DNA of 64,000 nt from Bifidobacterium sp. B4142 (GTDB taxonomy: Bacteria; Actinomycetota; Actinomycetes; Actinomycetales; Bifidobacteriaceae): positions 62,001 to 126,000 of the forward strand of contig NZ_JAFNMJ010000003.1 of NCBI RefSeq assembly GCF_026537325.1, written 5' to 3'. Each line of letters starts with the position of its first letter. Positions within the stretch are counted from its first letter, which is position 1. The translations under genes and the position numbers were made by a program. The notes below the pieces were generated by a model. That model searched no databases. It was not told the DNA's origin and was given only the letters and a program-made list of their open reading frames with translations. Positions 9,655 through 17,890 of the stretch are shown here, piece by piece.

Positions 9655-12600
9655 TCAACTCATGCCTTCCTGCATTCGGTGCTTGCGTTGGGCGGCGATG
9701 GCTGCCAATGTCATAAGACCGATCAGCAGGAGGAGGATTATCCCCCTTCCGCCGGCATTCGGCAGTATCCATGAATGCATGAAGATGTAGATATTGCTCG
9801 TGTCCGGGGTCTGCGGCTCCCCGGCCAGCGTCCATTCGATGGTGGTGGAAACCTGGCCGAATCTATGGCTGGGGGTGATAGCCTGCCAGGTCCCGTCCGG
9901 TTGCCCACTGACAATCGTTCCGTCGGCATCGCCGAAGGAAAGGCGGGTGGGAATGCCCATGGGCGGGATGGCAATGCGGGTGGCCAGCACCAGATCGGTG
10001 TTGTCGGAGCCGGTCCCGTTCTGCCCGGTGCTGTTTCGGCCGAAGCCATAGGCCGTTCCGTCGGTGCCGATGGCCAGGCTGTGGTTGTCGCCGGCGCTGA
10101 TGCTTCCAGCCTTGAGTCCCTGGCTCTTGTCCTTGGGATCCCTGGCCTTGGCAGGCTGCTCGGGGGAGCGTACATCACCGAGTTGGCCGTGGGTGTCGTC
10201 CCCCCAACCGTAGACCACCTGGTCGGTGCCGATGGCCAGGCTGTGGTTGTCTCCGGCCGCCACCTGCTGATAGGCGAAGCTGTCGGATGCACCCCGGGGG
10301 AGGGCGACTTGAACGGGTATGGGCTCGTCGTCCCCGACGGGTCTGACCTGGCCGTTGCTGTTCGACCCCCAGGCCCAGGCCCTCCCATCCTGGTCCAGGG
10401 CCACGGAGTGGGATGACCCGGCGCTGATCCGGATGTACACGGGGCTTTCGCTCATGCCTGATGGTACTGCCAGCGGTTTGGGCACCTTGCTTTCGCTGCT
10501 TCCGTCGCCAAGGCCGAGTCTCCCATTGGCATTGGACCCCCAGGCGTATATCTTCCGGTCGGTGCCGATGGCCAGGCTGTGCTCGCTTCCCGCACTGATC
10601 TGGATGTAGGAGAAGCCGGATGCGGCTTCGCCGGGCTTGGCTACCCGGATCGGAATCGGTGAACTGCCGGTCTTGCCATCACCTAGCCCGCCTGTGATGG
10701 ATCCCCAGGCATAGATGTTCCCGTCGCTGCCCAGAGCCAGGATATGCCTTCTGCCTACGGCCACCTGAGTGAACCTGAAGCCTGGGGCTGCATCTGCCGG
10801 AAGGACCACCTTGACAGGGATCGTGGAGGTGCTGGTGGTGCCGTCGCCCAGGCCTGTGGCGTTGGTGCCCCAGGCGTAGGCCATCCCATCGGATCCCAAG
10901 CCGATGCTCATCGTGGTGCCTGCGGCGGCCTGCAGCCAGGTGAACCCGGGTCTGGCCCCTTTCGGAGCGGCAACAGCAATGGGTTGGTTCCGATTGGTCC
11001 GCGTGCCGTCCCCAAGTTGGCCGGAGCTATTGTCTCCCCAGCTGTAGGCTTTTCCGTTGCTGCCGATCGCGAGTGAGTATCCTGACCCGGCGCTGACCTG
11101 TGACAGACGCATGTTGCCGGCTGGCGGTGGGGTGAGGGTCACGGTCTCGCCGCCGGTATCGATGCCGCGCGTGGGGGTGAGGGTCCACTTGGTGTTTGCA
11201 GGGCTCCACCTGGCTTTCAGGTTGTGGCCCTGCTGAATGGGTTGGGTGAAGTCATAGGCGGCATTCCCGTCGAACCAGCCGTCGAATTGTTGACCTGGTT
11301 TGGCGGGATTGGCAGGTCGGGTGACGGTGGTGTCCTCGTCCGCGGTCTGCGATGGTGGTGTGGGCGAGCCTCCGTCGCTGTCGTAGGTGATGGTGTAGCG
11401 CTCAGGGGTATAGGTGAAGTCGAGGACAGCATCTGGTTGGGGAAGACCGTTCTGGTTCCAGTGGATGACGAGAGGTATCGTGCCGGGTCGATGCCGTCTG
11501 GGTGGCGCGATGACGGTCCAGGCGCCGTCCGGCTGTCGGGAGGGATCGGCTCCTGGCATCCCGCCGAAATCGATGGAGGCGACCTGCAGGTCGGGGTAGT
11601 CGATGGCGACGGGTTTGGCTCTGCTGGTGGTGGTGTTGTCGCCGAGTTGGCCCTGGGTGTTGTTGCCCCATGCGTGCAGGGTTCCATGGCTGTCGATGGC
11701 GAGAGTGTGTCCGGTGCCGCCGGCGGTGCGGACCCAGGTGGCGTCGGAGGCAGGTGCGTCGATGGCGACGGGTTTGGCTCTGCTGGTGGTGGTGTTGTCG
11801 CCGAGTTGGCCCTGGGTGTTGTCGCCCCATGCGTGCAGGGTTCCATGGCTGTCGATGGCGAAGGATGCATGGCCGCCGGCGGAGATGGCGGTGATGGTTG
11901 CGGGCAGACCGGGTTTGACGGGTCGGCCGGTCTCGGTGCCGCTGCCTGCGCCGAGTTGGCCCTGCTGATCGGAGCCGAACGTGTACGGAATGTCGTCGCC
12001 AGTGTCGGCGTCGGAGCCGATGGCGAAGGTGTGGTCGGTGCCGGCGGTGACATGCAGCCATGTGAAGGCGGGGGATGTGCCGGTCGGGGCCTGGACCTGG
12101 GTCGGGGTACCGGCGGAGCCGCCCGTGTTTCCGTCGCCGAGCTGGCCGTAGTTGTTGTCGCCCCAAGCGTACATGCGGCCGTTGTTGGCGATGGCGAGGG
12201 TGTGGCGGCCGCCGGCCTGGATCTGTGTGTAGACCAGCCATGAGGGGGTGGCGGGAGGCATGGCCCGCATGGTCGGGGTACCGGTGGAGCCGCCCGTGTT
12301 TCCGTCGCCGAGCTGGCCTTGGGTGTTGTCCCCCCAGGTCCATGCCCTGCCCTGGGTGTCAAGGGCGGTCATATGGCCGTCGCCGGCGCTGATCTGGGTG
12401 AACTTGGTGTCCCCGGTATCGGCCTGCCGTGGTGTCGGGTCGTCACCGCTGGTGGTGCCATGGCCGAGTTGGCCGTGGTCGTTGTCGCCCCAGGTCCAGA
12501 TGCGTCCCTGGGTGTCGAGTGCGGCGGAGTATTTGTCGCCTGCGGTGGCTTGGGTGAATCGGGTGTCATCGGGGGTGGGAACGCTGGTGGGGGCGGAGCG

Positions 12601-15600
12601 TCTGGCCCGGTCGGGATTGCCGAGTTGGCCGTGGTCGTTGTCCCCCCAGGCATACAGACGGCCGTCGCTGGATACGGCCAGCGAATGGGTGCCGTCGGCG
12701 CTGATGCCGGCCAGGCGGGTGTTGGTCGCGTAGTCGGGCGGGGTCAGGGTCAGACTGGTGCCTCCGGATGTGCGACCTGAGGCAGGAGAGCGGGTCCAGG
12801 GGCCTGGTCGGCTCCATCTGGCAGTGATGGTTGTATCGCTGGTGACGGGCTGGGTGAAGTCAAAGGCAACGTTGCCCTGGAACCAGCCGTCGAACCTGTA
12901 TCCGGCGCGGCCCGGGTCGGCTGCGGGCCGGACGGCCTGTCCCCAGTCGTCTACGTCATGGCTGGTGACCGGGTCGCCGTTGGCTGGGTCGAATCGGACC
13001 CGGTGGCTGACTGTGAGATACGTGTAAGTCAGGGCAGCCGTGCCGGAATCCAGGTTCCGTCGTGACCAGGAGACTTTGACATCCACCGGGCCCGGAGTGT
13101 GCGCCGGCGGGCGCGCCTTCCAGGAGCCGTCAGGGTTTCTGACTGGCACGATCATCGATGGCTTTCCGTCGAAGGTGACGGAGGACACGGTCAAGGGCCA
13201 TGGGAACCATACGCTCGCCGGTCTCGGATTGGCCGCCGCTGCCCCGTTGCTGGTGTTGACGCTGTTGATGCCGAGCTGTCCCCAGTCGTTGCGGCCAAAA
13301 CTGTAGACGTTGCCGTCCGACCCGATGATCAGCATGTGCCAGTGGTTGCTGCCGATGGTGAGGCTGAAGTAGGTCAAGTCGCTCGGCGCTCCGTCCGGCT
13401 TGGGTATGCGCGTGGGTGTGGCTACGCCTGAGTCGCTGCCGTTGGTGGTGGTGGTGCCAAGCTGGCCGTATTGGTTGCTTCCCCATGCCCAGGCGCCCGT
13501 GTCAGTAATGGCGGTGGAAAAGTCCCAACTTGCATTAATGTCTATGGCGCCGGTCAGGCCCGGAACCCGTCCTGGGCGGGTGCGTTCTCCGCTGCGTCCC
13601 AGCTCATTGTGCTTATTGCCTCCCCATGTATAGATGTTGCCGTCGGTGGCTATGCCCATGGATACGTATGCACCGGCGCTGATCGCGGTGAACTTCAGAT
13701 CTGTGGCGACTGGGCCTGGTTTGCCGGCGGGGTAGGCATCGCTGGAATCGCGCCCCAATATACCATAGTAGTCGCTAAGGGTGTTGGTTTTTTCATAGCG
13801 GCCCCAGGTCCAGGCGGTGCCGTCGGCGGCCAGGGCCATGGAATCCCGGTCGCCGGCGCTGATCGCGGTGAAGGTGGTTCCCTCGGGCATGGCCACTTTC
13901 GTAGGGGTGATGTCGTTCATGGAACCGTCGTAGGGCGGACGGCCGAGCTGGCCATCCATGTTTTGTCCCCAGGTCCAGACGTTGCCGTCCCGGTCCAGGG
14001 CCATGGAATGGATGTTGCCGGCGCTGATGGCGATGAACTGAACATTTGCAGGGGTGGAGGCAAGGCCCGGCGTGGGATAGCAGTTACCCACTCCCACGGA
14101 TCCGCGCCCCAGACGTCCGGCTTCGTTGTTTCCCCAGGTCCAGATTTTTCCGTCCCGGTCCAGGGCCATGGAATACCAGCCACCATTGGAGACATGGGTG
14201 AACTTCACTCCATCGGGCACCTTGACCATCACCGGGGTGGTTTGACGCGCCGAGGTGCCTCCCATTCTGCCGGTGCCCAGTTGGCCGCAATCGTTTCTTC
14301 CCCATGCATAGGCGTTCCCGTCGCTGCCCAATGCCAGGGAATGAAACTGTCCCGAGGACACCTGGGAGAAGGCGATGCGGTTTGGAGGGTCGATGCGCAC
14401 ATTGTTGCCACCGGTCCGGGGACCCGACGTGGGGTGGATTGACCACTGGTTATTGCCGAATGTCCACCTGGCGGTCAGTGTGGTGGCCCCCTTGATGGGT
14501 CTGCTGAAGTCATAGGCGAGATTTCCCTGGAACCAGCCGTCAAATGTCCAACCCGCCTCGCTCGGGTCGTCTGGGCGTTGGATGGTGTCGCCTACGGCGA
14601 CTTGCTGGTTGGGGATTGGGTCGCCGTGCTCCGACTTGAAAGTGACGGCGGCCGCGACACCGGTGTAGGTGAATCTCTGGCTAGTGTCGTCGGGTTGGCT
14701 TGCACCTGTGGCGTCAGCGGACTGGATGGTGAGGGTGACGGTGCCCAGATGGTGCCGGGGGGAGGTAACGTGCCATCCGTCGGCGCGTTTGGTGATGTCG
14801 CCAATGTTGTGGCTGTCGCCGAAAAGAACGGAAGTTATCCGCCCGTCGGTTGACCGCCAGACCATGTCTGGCTTCGGATTGGCTGCCGCTGATCCGCTCG
14901 TTGCGCTGTTGGTCGTGTTGGTGCCGAGTTGGCCGTAGTCGTTGCGACCCATGCTGTAGGTGTTCCCGTCCGACCCGATGACAAGCGTGTGGAAGCTGGT
15001 GTTTCCTGTATTGAGGCTGGTGTAGGTGAAGGAGGCGGGAGTTTCGTCAGGGGTTGTCATGCGGGTGGGTATGGTCGTGTCTGTATTGGTGCCGAGTTGG
15101 CCGTAGTCGTTGCTTCCCCATGCCCAGGCACCGGTGTTGGTGATGGCGGTGGAGTAGTTCCGGCCGGCGTTGATGTCTGTGGCGCCGGTCATGCCGGGAA
15201 CCTGTCCTGGTCGGGTCGTGTCGCCGGAGCGTCCCAGTTGTTTTGAACGGTTGCCTCCCCAAGTGAATATGGTGTTGTCGGTGCCGACAGCCATGGAATG
15301 GTTGTATCCAGCGCTGATTGCGGTGAACTTCCGGTCGGTATCGACCTGGCCGGGCCTGTTGGCGGGGGCGGCATCGGTTGGCGTGCGGCCCAGTACGCCG
15401 TAAAAGTCATCTTTTGTGCCGCCGTTGTCCCCCCAGGTCCAGGCGGTGCCGTCGGCGGTCAGGGCCATGGAATGGTAAACGCCTGCGCTGATTGCCGTGA
15501 AATGGGTTCCATCTGGCGCGGTCACCTTCGCCGGCGTGTTGTCGCTTGCCGTGCTGCCATATGGAGGACGGCCGAGCTGACCATTGTAATTGATGCCCCA

Positions 15601-16664
15601 GGTCCAGATGTTGCCCTTGGTGTCCAGGGCTAAGGAATGCAGGTTCCCGGCGCTGATAGCTTTGAAGGTTGTGTCTGATGGGATGTCAGCCAGGCCCGGT
15701 GTGGAGTAGGAGCTGTTGACAGAGCCGCGGCCCAGTCGTCCGCCATCGTTGAATCCCCAGGTCCAGATCCTGCCGTCGCGGTCCAGGGCCATAGAATACC
15801 AGCCGCCTGCGGACACTTGGGTGAATTTGACGCCCGCGGGCATGGATACCGGCACCGGAGTCGTTCTACTCGTCGTGGTCGTCCCGTCGCCCAGTTGTCC
15901 GCAGTCGTTTCTACCCCATGCGTAGGCGTTCCCGTCGCTGCCCAATGCCAGGGAATGGTACTGGGCAGCGGACACCTGAGCGAGTCGGACCGGGTCCTTT
16001 GGCGAATTCACCGTTACGTCTGTGCCGCCCTGCCAGGGGCCGCTCGTGGGGTTGGTCGCCCATTGCCCCCATCTGGCCTTCAGATTCGTATCCTGAGTGA
16101 CGGGCCTGGAGAAATCGTAGGGGACATCGCCCTGGAACCAGCCGTCGAATGTCCAGCCCGGGCGGGATGGATCGTCGTGTGGCCAGGAAGCGGTTTCGCC
16201 GTCGGCTACGATCTGTTGGGCGGGCATGCCCGTGGTGCCCTCATCTGATGTGAACTGCACCGTATGGGTACCGTTGTTTCTTGGTGACGGGTCTGGAGAC
16301 TGCTGTGTGGTGGTCAGAGAATTCAGCGTCGCCAGGGGTGAAGGATGGTTCCCTGATTCCGGTTGAGGGTTCGTGGGCTGGATCAGTGGTGTCGATTGGG
16401 CGGTTTGCGGGGATGGATGCTCGGAGGGTGTTGCTATGGAAGAGGGTGAAGGATGGTTATCTAGTTCGGGAACTGACGGCCTTGGGGCCGGGGCTTCTCT
16501 CTCACCCCCCCCCCCCCCCTGATTTCAGACTCTGCCAGTGCATTGGTGTCTGATTGCTCAGCACCGGCAGCATGCGCATCTGCCATGAGCCCCAGGCCCA
16601 TGGCAGCGAGCACGGCGAAGACGCAGATAATAGGGCGTGAGACGCGCCTAGAAGCAACACGCAT
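9655..16664 (-). CDS. Giant RCC1-repeat cell-surface protein, interrupted by a poly-G frameshift (phase-OFF as written)
   Basis: Cell-surface protein of about 2336 aa when the frame is intact. The secretion signal begins at ATG 16664 (GGGAAGG upstream); the body is open from 16524 to the stop at 9655 in another frame. They are separated by 15 G (16505-16519). The body shows four repeated units, beginning near residues 1, 540, 1083 and 1620 counted from codon 16260. Each has an InlB/Flg_new-type repeat ending FDGWF...YDF...ARW, a short TIG-like strand (TSGPxxGGT), and seven to eight RCC1 repeats (SLALGSDGNAYAWGRNDCGQLG and variants) that should form a seven-bladed propeller. The C-terminus has LPNAG, a hydrophobic segment and RKHR, i.e. 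a variant sortase signal. Between signal and body lies a Pro/Ser/Thr linker. Ligand unknown; adhesion is inferred. Confidence 0.85.
11600..11861 (-). repeat. Recent tandem duplication of one RCC1 repeat
   Basis: The 103 bases at 11600-11702 recur at 11759-11861 with one visible mismatch, a period of 159 bp or 53 codons, i.e. one RCC1 blade. Neighbouring blades share shorter near-identical stretches, for example from 12101 and 12272 (period 171 bp). Such similarity at the DNA level suggests recent duplication or gene conversion inside the gene. Confidence 0.75.
16461..16664 (-). CDS. Signal peptide and truncated product made when the poly-G tract has 15 G
   Basis: As the sequence stands, translation from ATG 16664 reads through the G-run in the wrong frame and stops at 16461 after 67 aa. 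The first 35 residues are a clear Sec signal peptide: basic MRVASRRVSR, a hydrophobic core IICVFAVLAAMGLGL and an Ala-rich cleavage region ending AHAAGA before EQSDTN. GGGAAGG lies eight bases before the ATG. It is the 5' end of the RCC1 gene, not an independent gene: in the other frame a linker rich in Pro, Ser and Thr continues without a stop into the body. Confidence 0.8.
   Translation of the reverse strand: MRVASRRVSRPIICVFAVLAAMGLGLMADAHAAGAEQSDTNALAESEIRGGGGVREKPRPQGRQFPN
16505..16519 (-). repeat. Homopolymer G15 (C15 on + strand), putative phase-variation switch
   Basis: Fifteen consecutive G on the coding strand lie between the signal peptide and the RCC1 body. By translation: 15 G gives a stop at 16461; 14 or 17 G gives an immediate TGA right after the run (16504-16502); 16 or 13 G restores the full frame. 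No comparable run is found elsewhere in the window. Runs of this length are known to slip during replication and are also prone to sequencing error. Confidence 0.85.
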
Positions 16665-17020
16665 GAAAGATGCCTTCCCAACATGCTGCCCTCAGAATTT
16701 CTTGGAACCTGATTTCTTCAACCCCATGAATAATCAGAAGAGGGCAGTTCTATACACTGCTTAGCACTATAACACCTTGTTCCTGTCTTGAGGGGATACT
16801 CGGCGAAAGGGGATTCCTGTCTTCGCGGGCCGGGAGAAGACTCCCGAGCTGAAGCGCGGGGAGGCGAGTGTGACGGAAAGCCATCAGGGGAACGGTTTTG
16901 AGGCCGTCCCACGACCTGGATCGGGTGGGCTTGCCAGTCACGTTATCCTATGCGGCGCGACTTTCGCACCGCGTTGCTGACGCTTTGCGGTCGGCCGAAT
17001 CATAGCTGGTGTTCGGGATC
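16665..17020. other. Intergenic region upstream of the RCC1 gene
   Basis: 356 bp between the RCC1 signal peptide and the end of pgl, both on the minus strand. Minus-strand -10-like hexamers TATAGT (16769-16774) and TATAGA (near 16752) could serve the RCC1 gene, but neither has a convincing -35. No gene, repeat or clear terminator is visible. Confidence 0.4.
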
Positions 17021-17812
17021 TTAGCCAAGCTGGCTTGCGGCGTCCTCGTCAAGCAGCCATAAGGTCTGTTCGGTACCCCTGGCGAATGAGGAGGGGACGT
17101 GGGGGTTGTCCTCATCCCTCAGTGCCTTCTTCACGGCTTGGGCCTTTTCTTGGGTGGAAGTGAAGAGCCAGACTTTGGGGGTACGGCGGATGAACGGGGT
17201 GGTCATGGTCACCCGCAGCGGTGGGAGCTTGGGCGAATGGCTGACGCCTGCCACCAGCGTGGTTTCGTCGCTGATCAGCGCCTCGGGGCGGTCAGGGAAG
17301 AGCGATGCGTAGTGGCCGTCTGGCCCTACGCCGAAAACGGCCAGGTCCATATGGCCATGGGGGCCGATCCCCCGAATGATTTCATCCTGGTAGGCCCGTG
17401 CCGCCTGGGCCAGTGCTTCTGTGTCGTCGGCCTCGCTCGCCCTTGCGATCTGGTCGGGGGTACGAATATCAGCCGGCATTTCATGAACATGGTCCGCAGG
17501 TAGATCACCCTTGTCGATGAGCCTGCCGAACCAGGCGTCCCGGGCTTGCTTGGCATTGCGTTCAGGGTCTTCCGGGCTCACGAATCTCTCGTCGCTCCAC
17601 CACAGATGAACCCGCTTCCAGTCGATGCTCGCTGCAAGATCACTGGTCCCCATCAGTGCGTAGATTTCCGCCGCGTCCGTTCCACCGGTCAAAGCCAGGT
17701 CCGCCCGCTCCTGACGTGCCAGGATGTCCCCTAATTCGATCAGCATTCGCGCGGCTGTGGCCTTGTTGAGCAGGCTGGTGCTGGCATAACGGATGATTGT
17801 ACGCTCGGTCAT
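17021..17812 (-). CDS. pgl: 6-phosphogluconolactonase
   Basis: Hydrolyses 6-phosphogluconolactone to 6-phosphogluconate, the step between Zwf and Gnd; cytoplasmic, 263 aa. Family segments are LALTGGTDAAEIYALM, VHLWWSDERFVSPEDPERN and the active-site stretch MDLAVFGVGPDGHYASLFPD. Start at 17812 with AAGGAG upstream. It follows opcA by 78 bp and is the third gene of the zwf-opcA-pgl run on the minus strand. Length is normal for the family. Confidence 0.95.
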   Translation of the reverse strand: MTERTIIRYASTSLLNKATAARMLIELGDILARQERADLALTGGTDAAEIYALMGTSDLAASIDWKRVHLWWSDERFVSPEDPERNAKQARDAWFGRLIDKGDLPADHVHEMPADIRTPDQIARASEADDTEALAQAARAYQDEIIRGIGPHGHMDLAVFGVGPDGHYASLFPDRPEALISDETTLVAGVSHSPKLPPLRVTMTTPFIRRTPKVWLFTSTQEKAQAVKKALRDEDNPHVPSSFARGTEQTLWLLDEDAASQLG

Positions 17813-17890
17813 GGCGTCTCCTTCATGGCAGTGATGTCTATCATACTTGCGCGCTTGCGCCTCCAGTGGCTCCCGGCGCCGAACCAGCCG

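Follow-up and report, generated by a model that had tools for sequence, protein, structure and literature searches.

The locus described here raises a simple question. A signal-peptide ORF and a 2201-residue RCC1-repeat body lie in different reading frames, with a run of G residues between them, and it has to be asked whether the two form a single gene whose export is turned ON and OFF by the length of that run. In the window, by which we mean the whole stretch of DNA analyzed (64 kb), the minus strand carries exactly 15 consecutive G at 16505-16519, and there is no other G or C run of at least 9. The run begins 145 nt from the start of the ATG 16664 codon (minus strand), and a 15-G run was obtained in none of 100 dinucleotide shuffles.

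Layout of the window gene

The minus strand encodes MRVASRRVSRPIICVFAVLAAMGLGLMADAHA from ATG 16664, by eye a clear signal peptide. With the 15 G of the assembly, the frame from this ATG ends at TAG 16463-16461. Past the run, the third frame meets an immediate TGA at 16502-16504, and the body frame is open over the linker and on to 9655. From these frame positions, signal peptide, Pro/Ser/Thr linker and body would be joined at 13 or 16 G, and because of the third frame, 14 or 17 G would lead to the TGA directly past the run. Either wrong frame closes within 44 nt of the run, and both frames other than the body frame contain stops between the run and GTG 16260. The original prediction had described exactly 15 G between the signal peptide at ATG 16664 and a body of about 2200 residues in another frame. 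It had further given an end at 16461 for 15 G, an immediate TGA for 14 or 17 G and a frame from 16664 to 9655 for 13 or 16 G, and had called the linker open in the correct frame only. All of this was reproduced, with a body of 2201 residues (16260-9655). The features are collected in Table 1.

Table 1. Position and strand of the features of the window gene, with the evidence available for each.
Feature	Position	Strand	Evidence
Presumed Shine-Dalgarno-like motif GGGAAGG, 8 nt 5' of the ATG	16673..16679	-	by eye
Upstream ORF at 15 G: signal peptide, run, short out-of-frame tail, TAG 16463-16461	16461..16664	-	
Signal peptide, likely cut after ADAHA (site assumed from the AxA rule)	16569..16664	-	orthologous starts in L039, L040
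15-G run, candidate slippage switch; 13 or 16 G would be in frame	16505..16519	-	13 G in G011, 14 G in L039
TGA adjoining the run, stop of one OFF frame	16502..16504	-	
TAGATAA; its TAG closes the 15-G OFF frame; resembles the family stop element	16457..16463	-	
Pro/Ser/Thr linker, fully open in the body frame only	16261..16504	-	dN/dS 0.41 vs G011
Body ORF, 2201 aa, RCC1 repeats and Flg_new	9655..16260	-	Pfam
C-terminal signal, presumably of the sortase type: LPNAGG, hydrophobic stretch, basic tail	9658..9765	-	

Pfam identified 26 RCC1 stretches and 4 Flg_new stretches in the body. Its C-terminus has LPNAGG where LPxTG would stand, followed by a hydrophobic stretch and RKHR; LPxAG is frequent within the RCC1 family. 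By eye, no Sec signal of its own was seen at the body start GTG 16260, which reads VQFTSDEGTTGMPAQQ. The in-frame product of about 2335 residues is probably a secreted RCC1-propeller surface protein that is anchored by sortase. Two sortase matches were found in the window genome (G000; 2,224,927 bases, 19 contigs), on contigs C15 and C16, and the window lies on C11. The neighbors (10 ORFs scanned) gave sugar-phosphate, gluconate-permease, regulator and ABC-transport family matches. A scan of 16400-17100 returned a single weak promoter-like site and no terminator-like site. The best named matches came from an uncultured Bifidobacterium and from B. indicum, which we take to be bee-associated. 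These named relatives, together with the literature, suggest a bee-gut setting for the window host.

Orthologues and the single-gene reading

The G011 orthologue, which shares 96.9% identity with the window gene across 859 nt around the run, has 13 G, and its frame is unbroken from the signal peptide through the linker and into the body. Its body has a 1-nt deletion near residue 537 (L092, C1), so that beyond its ON-phase run this copy may carry a genuine break, or else a sequencing or assembly error. The orthologue of the uncultured Bifidobacterium (L039) has 14 G and is OFF, and 13 or 16 G would restore its frame. Among these close relatives, run lengths are 15, 13 and 14, and the ON phase is common to all. 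The orthologues of B. indicum DSM 20214 (L040) and of a near relative, G015, (55-57% identity) are run-less and consist of a single unbroken frame. The same gene lacking a homopolymer in relatives had been named in advance as an argument against a switch. Such genes do exist in these two genomes, but they are in frame, which fits a fixed-ON version of the gene.

We also compared the substitutions between G000 and G011. The signal peptide had a dN/dS of 0.08 (5 changes). The linker (15 changes) gave 0.41 when read in the body frame, compared with 2.0 and 0.77 when read in the two shifted ones, and for the first 530 body codons the value was 0.26 (few changes). The pattern, though drawn from few changes, argues for coding in the joined frame. 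As read from the sequences, signal peptide, linker and body are one gene, on four agreeing lines of evidence. The single real gene of the original prediction is thus upheld by the 13-G read-through orthologue, by the two run-less orthologues with one frame, and by substitutions that fit the joined frame.

The split frames could also be those of a decaying pseudogene or of two unrelated genes that happen to be neighbors, and the G011 copy has a second frame break. Both versions are most improbable. Against them stand the unbroken orthologues, the lack of a signal peptide at GTG 16260, 2201 stop-free codons and the low dN/dS of signal peptide and body (few changes).

In order to relate run length to its surroundings, we used 34 pairs whose flanks shared at least 90% identity across 780 nt or more. 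In the 6 pairs that were closest, with a flank identity of 95% or higher, the run differed in length in 4 and in state in 3, and the flanks had one gap opening altogether. The other 28 pairs, at 90-95% flank identity, differed in length in 8 cases and in state in 6, and had 60 flank gap openings. Run length outpaces its surroundings only among the closest pairs.

Run-bearing RCC1 genes and their OFF-frame stops

The original prediction concerned a single gene, and the window gene turned out to be one among many such genes in the genus. P0001 matched 20 of the 27 genomes of its genus (E 1e-30). Our census covered fetched stretches, 1.12 Mb from 20 genomes of the genus, with one genome per species. 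It contained 155 RCC1 ORFs, and the layout of signal peptide, G10-17 run and body was present in 88 RCC1 genes from 17 genomes, a ratio that is not an unbiased frequency because the stretches were picked by RCC1 matches or run patterns, motif included. Signal peptides were called by hydrophobicity; row G002:C1:804178 was counted despite a doubtful signal-peptide assignment. Up to 14 run-bearing RCC1 genes per genome were present in the fetched stretches. The window genome has three genes with the layout, none of them in frame (13, 15 and 15 G), and nine RCC1 ORF pieces were seen in it. In G019, a run of at least 8 G occurs at the same place in 12 of 22 RCC1 ORF pieces. In the RCC1 genes inspected in G002, the run lies directly 3' of the hydrophobic core and before the likely cleavage site, i.e. 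inside the signal peptide.

Most run-bearing genes were out of frame (68 of 88). The remaining 20 are somewhat below the one third expected for random phase (p 0.04, uncorrected for relatedness). The commonest state was 12 G out of frame (48 of 88 genes), and 11 G was found in frame 12 times. Whereas only 19 of 85 genes with a run were in frame, this was the case for 51 of 58 genes without one (Fisher p 2e-15, uncorrected for relatedness). This test was done without 12 stretch-edge ORFs, including 3 run-bearing ones that remain within the 88. Among the run-less ORFs without signal peptide (7), G003:C3:103855 has a 12-G run (locus L067) that was missed by the filter. Another of these 7, G011:C1:331395, corresponds to the part of the broken G011 orthologue that follows the break. 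Five run-less paralogues (G007, G020) retain a remnant of the post-run sequence, and all five are in frame. They are candidates for switches frozen ON.

G or C runs of at least 9 are present in all 27 genomes of the genus, with a median of 30 in the 20 genomes with RCC1 matches and of 9 in the 7 without (p 0.0002, uncorrected for relatedness). In the window genome, 29 of 32 such runs are without the signal-peptide/body layout, and several of these cluster at C1:52923-64784 and C8:30068-52770. G002 (1.9 Mb) has 80 such runs, for example within C1:684000-818500. Outside the window, the region C16:15060-19913 of the window genome has a sortase match followed by 15 consecutive C (17802-17816), about 120 nt 5' of a 658-residue ORF with a signal-like start; this is possibly a second kind of switch, ahead of a surface gene. 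The same genome has 85 G at a contig end (C18:43396-43480), probably a read or assembly artefact, which advises caution for run lengths.

The run of the window gene could itself be an assembly error. Its true length would then be 13 or 16 G, and the gene would be ON and stable in this strain. Homopolymer lengths are indeed error-prone, as annotated and measured lengths differed in the main text of Penno 2022 (PMC9187656), and the 85-G contig end belongs to the very same assembly. However, G10-17 runs recur in 17 genomes with 68 of 88 genes out of frame, run-less paralogues are in frame in 51 of 58 cases, and an error would alter only the called state of this strain and leave the run itself in place. 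We therefore regard an assembly error as quite improbable, with the reservation that the OFF call for the window gene is uncertain because assembled lengths of such runs are unreliable.

In 85 of the 88 run-bearing genes, both OFF frames were stopped within 60 nt past the run, with the later stop at a median of 24 nt. As a control, the same was seen at 12% of 4398 random positions in the bodies (median 189 nt). In run-less paralogues, 4-9 of 51 were stopped in both frames, depending on which of six places, 5-30 residues past the hydrophobic core, was taken. The 60-nt limit also held for both OFF frames in 17 of 19 genes with a flank of neither common type. Stops in both wrong frames suggest selection on the quality of the OFF state.

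TCGTCAGACCCCTCGCGTAGCTRA, a 24-nt element that hardly varies and ends in TAGCTRA, stands right behind the run in 64 genes from 11 genomes. In these genes the element occurs in 5 variants, compared with 54 for the 60 nt before the run, although only its positions 11-24 are free evidence because the first 10 nt after the run were used to choose the 64. At its one freely varying position, the OFF-frame stop is either TAA or TGA and the ON-frame residue changes, e.g. from Lys to Glu. Variation there alters the amino acid and leaves a stop in place. The uniformity of the element could also come from gene conversion. Allowing for one mismatch, we located the run with TCGTCAGACC behind it in 12 genomes out of 189 from the bacterial family, to which Gardnerella also belongs. 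All 12 are in this genus; in the G014 match, the mismatch falls inside the run.

In the window gene, a candidate relic of the element was aligned about 23-50 nt past the run, with a score reached by 16 of 2000 shuffles and 7 of 669 body pieces. For G018, the score was reached by 2 of 2000 shuffles and 3 of 669 body pieces. A descent of the window TAGATAA from the common stop element is only suggestive on these alignments. A hairpin of the run with downstream C residues was considered as a slippage aid and dropped, since its single-strand fold did not clearly outscore shuffles (z -1.30 for a common-type locus and 0.03 for the window).

Slippage at long G runs can also occur during transcription or during translation. 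Either process, acting on the 15 G as transcriptional slippage or as ribosomal frameshifting, would yield a low, constant level of product and not a heritable switch, and it could coexist with one. Constant expression of this kind is very improbable as the explanation of the locus: run length varies among close relatives, some of which are in frame in the DNA, and genes lacking a run are in frame. Expression by slippage would be limited, though not excluded, by the stops that close the two OFF frames.

The proposed switch and known systems

It is very likely, judging from sequence comparison, that the window run is a slippage switch. For the whole explanation, in which replication slippage at the G-run switches a sortase-anchored RCC1 surface protein ON and OFF, we estimate a probability of roughly 0.87. 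DNA replication would slip at the G-run, which would thereby become longer or shorter. With 13 or 16 G, signal peptide and body would form one product that is exported (ON). With any other length, translation would end within 44 nt past the run, and the body would not be made or, for want of an export signal of its own, would not be exported (OFF); the assembled 15 G would represent the OFF state. ON cells would display the RCC1 protein, and OFF cells would contain a short peptide and, through polarity as in B. breve, little body RNA. We infer that slippage occurs within populations and that the protein is displayed on the surface. Adhesion, or variation towards phages or host, may be proposed as the benefit, as guesses from architecture and copy number.

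Many members of the RCC1 family carry a run of their own, so that many surface combinations could exist in one population. G002, G004, G019 and G021 would each possess a combinatorial system of at least 10 RCC1 proteins with a G-run apiece, tight OFF states and probable RNA silencing, a proposal to which we give even odds. The tight OFF state and probable silencing of the long body RNA are suggested because nearly all runs precede stops in two frames. If the proposal is true, one clone could give rise to a thousand or more surface combinations through slippage, comparable to the contingency-locus repertoires of pathogens, yet in a beneficial insect symbiont. Switching would also offer a reason for the high number of RCC1 proteins, and slippage switching would be extended from a few bifidobacterial pilus loci to a large surface family in probable insect symbionts. 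As the bee gut is simple and tractable, selection for ON alleles by host, phages or niche could be tested there.

The mechanism of the G-tract switch is already known from B. breve pili, and so is the RCC1 surface family. The combination of a G-run switch with the RCC1 family, its scale and the two-frame stop element were not found in PMC main texts, a corpus that covers few subscription journals. What appears new relative to the PMC literature is an RCC1 repertoire made up of many genes, each with a probable switch of its own and with stops in either OFF frame. According to the main texts on bee bifidobacteria, RCC1 proteins likewise combine RCC1 with Flg_new and form a tandem multigene family (PMC4449606, PMC3447821), with 19 RCC1 copies in B. 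asteroides (Bottacini 2012, PMC3447821). They carry a C-terminal wall-anchoring signal (PMC4449606, PMC3447821), to which the LPNAGG end of the window protein may correspond. Unlike the present analysis, these main texts mention neither homopolymer nor frameshift (PMC4449606, PMC3447821), and that of PMC4449606 does not mention slippage. In Gardnerella, tracts are similarly tied to LPXTG surface proteins and one tract varies among colonies; there, however, about 70% of G/C tracts lie upstream of ORFs, and RCC1 is unmentioned in the text sections covered (PMC11287997).

The closest parallel is B. breve, which bears the same genus name. The original prediction had held that few examples were described in bifidobacteria, a view that has to be revised, as B. 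breve pilus genes have the same order (main text, PMC9187656). In bbr_0113 and bbr_1889, the Sec signal and the body of an LPXTG surface protein occupy two ORFs split by a 5' G-tract, and slippage joins the two (PMC9187656). The window gene has a similar layout, and slippage would join its two parts as well. The main text reports that replication slippage was measured in B. breve UCC2003 at two pilus loci with the G-tract between signal peptide and body, that a single-colony culture had 37% G11, 59% G12 and 3% G10 at one locus, that pilus-like structures were seen on strains brought into frame, and that mouse passage enriched the ON length (PMC9187656). On our side, natural in-frame alleles are the 13-G allele of G011 (up to its later 1-nt deletion) and 20 of the 88 family genes. 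Penno 2022 argued that an early stop uncouples translation from transcription and thereby silences the downstream RNA (main text, PMC9187656); by analogy, polarity may silence the body RNA at RCC1 genes. The B. breve gene heads a pilus operon that has a sortase of its own (PMC9187656), whereas the window RCC1 gene stands outside such a cluster. B. breve runs have 8-13 G (Table 1 of that paper) and there are one or two clusters per genome (PMC9187656), compared with up to 14 run-bearing RCC1 genes in the stretches fetched here. With its metabolic, regulatory and transport neighbors and with sortases elsewhere in the genome, the window gene would thus work like the B. breve switch, but not as a member of a pilus cluster.
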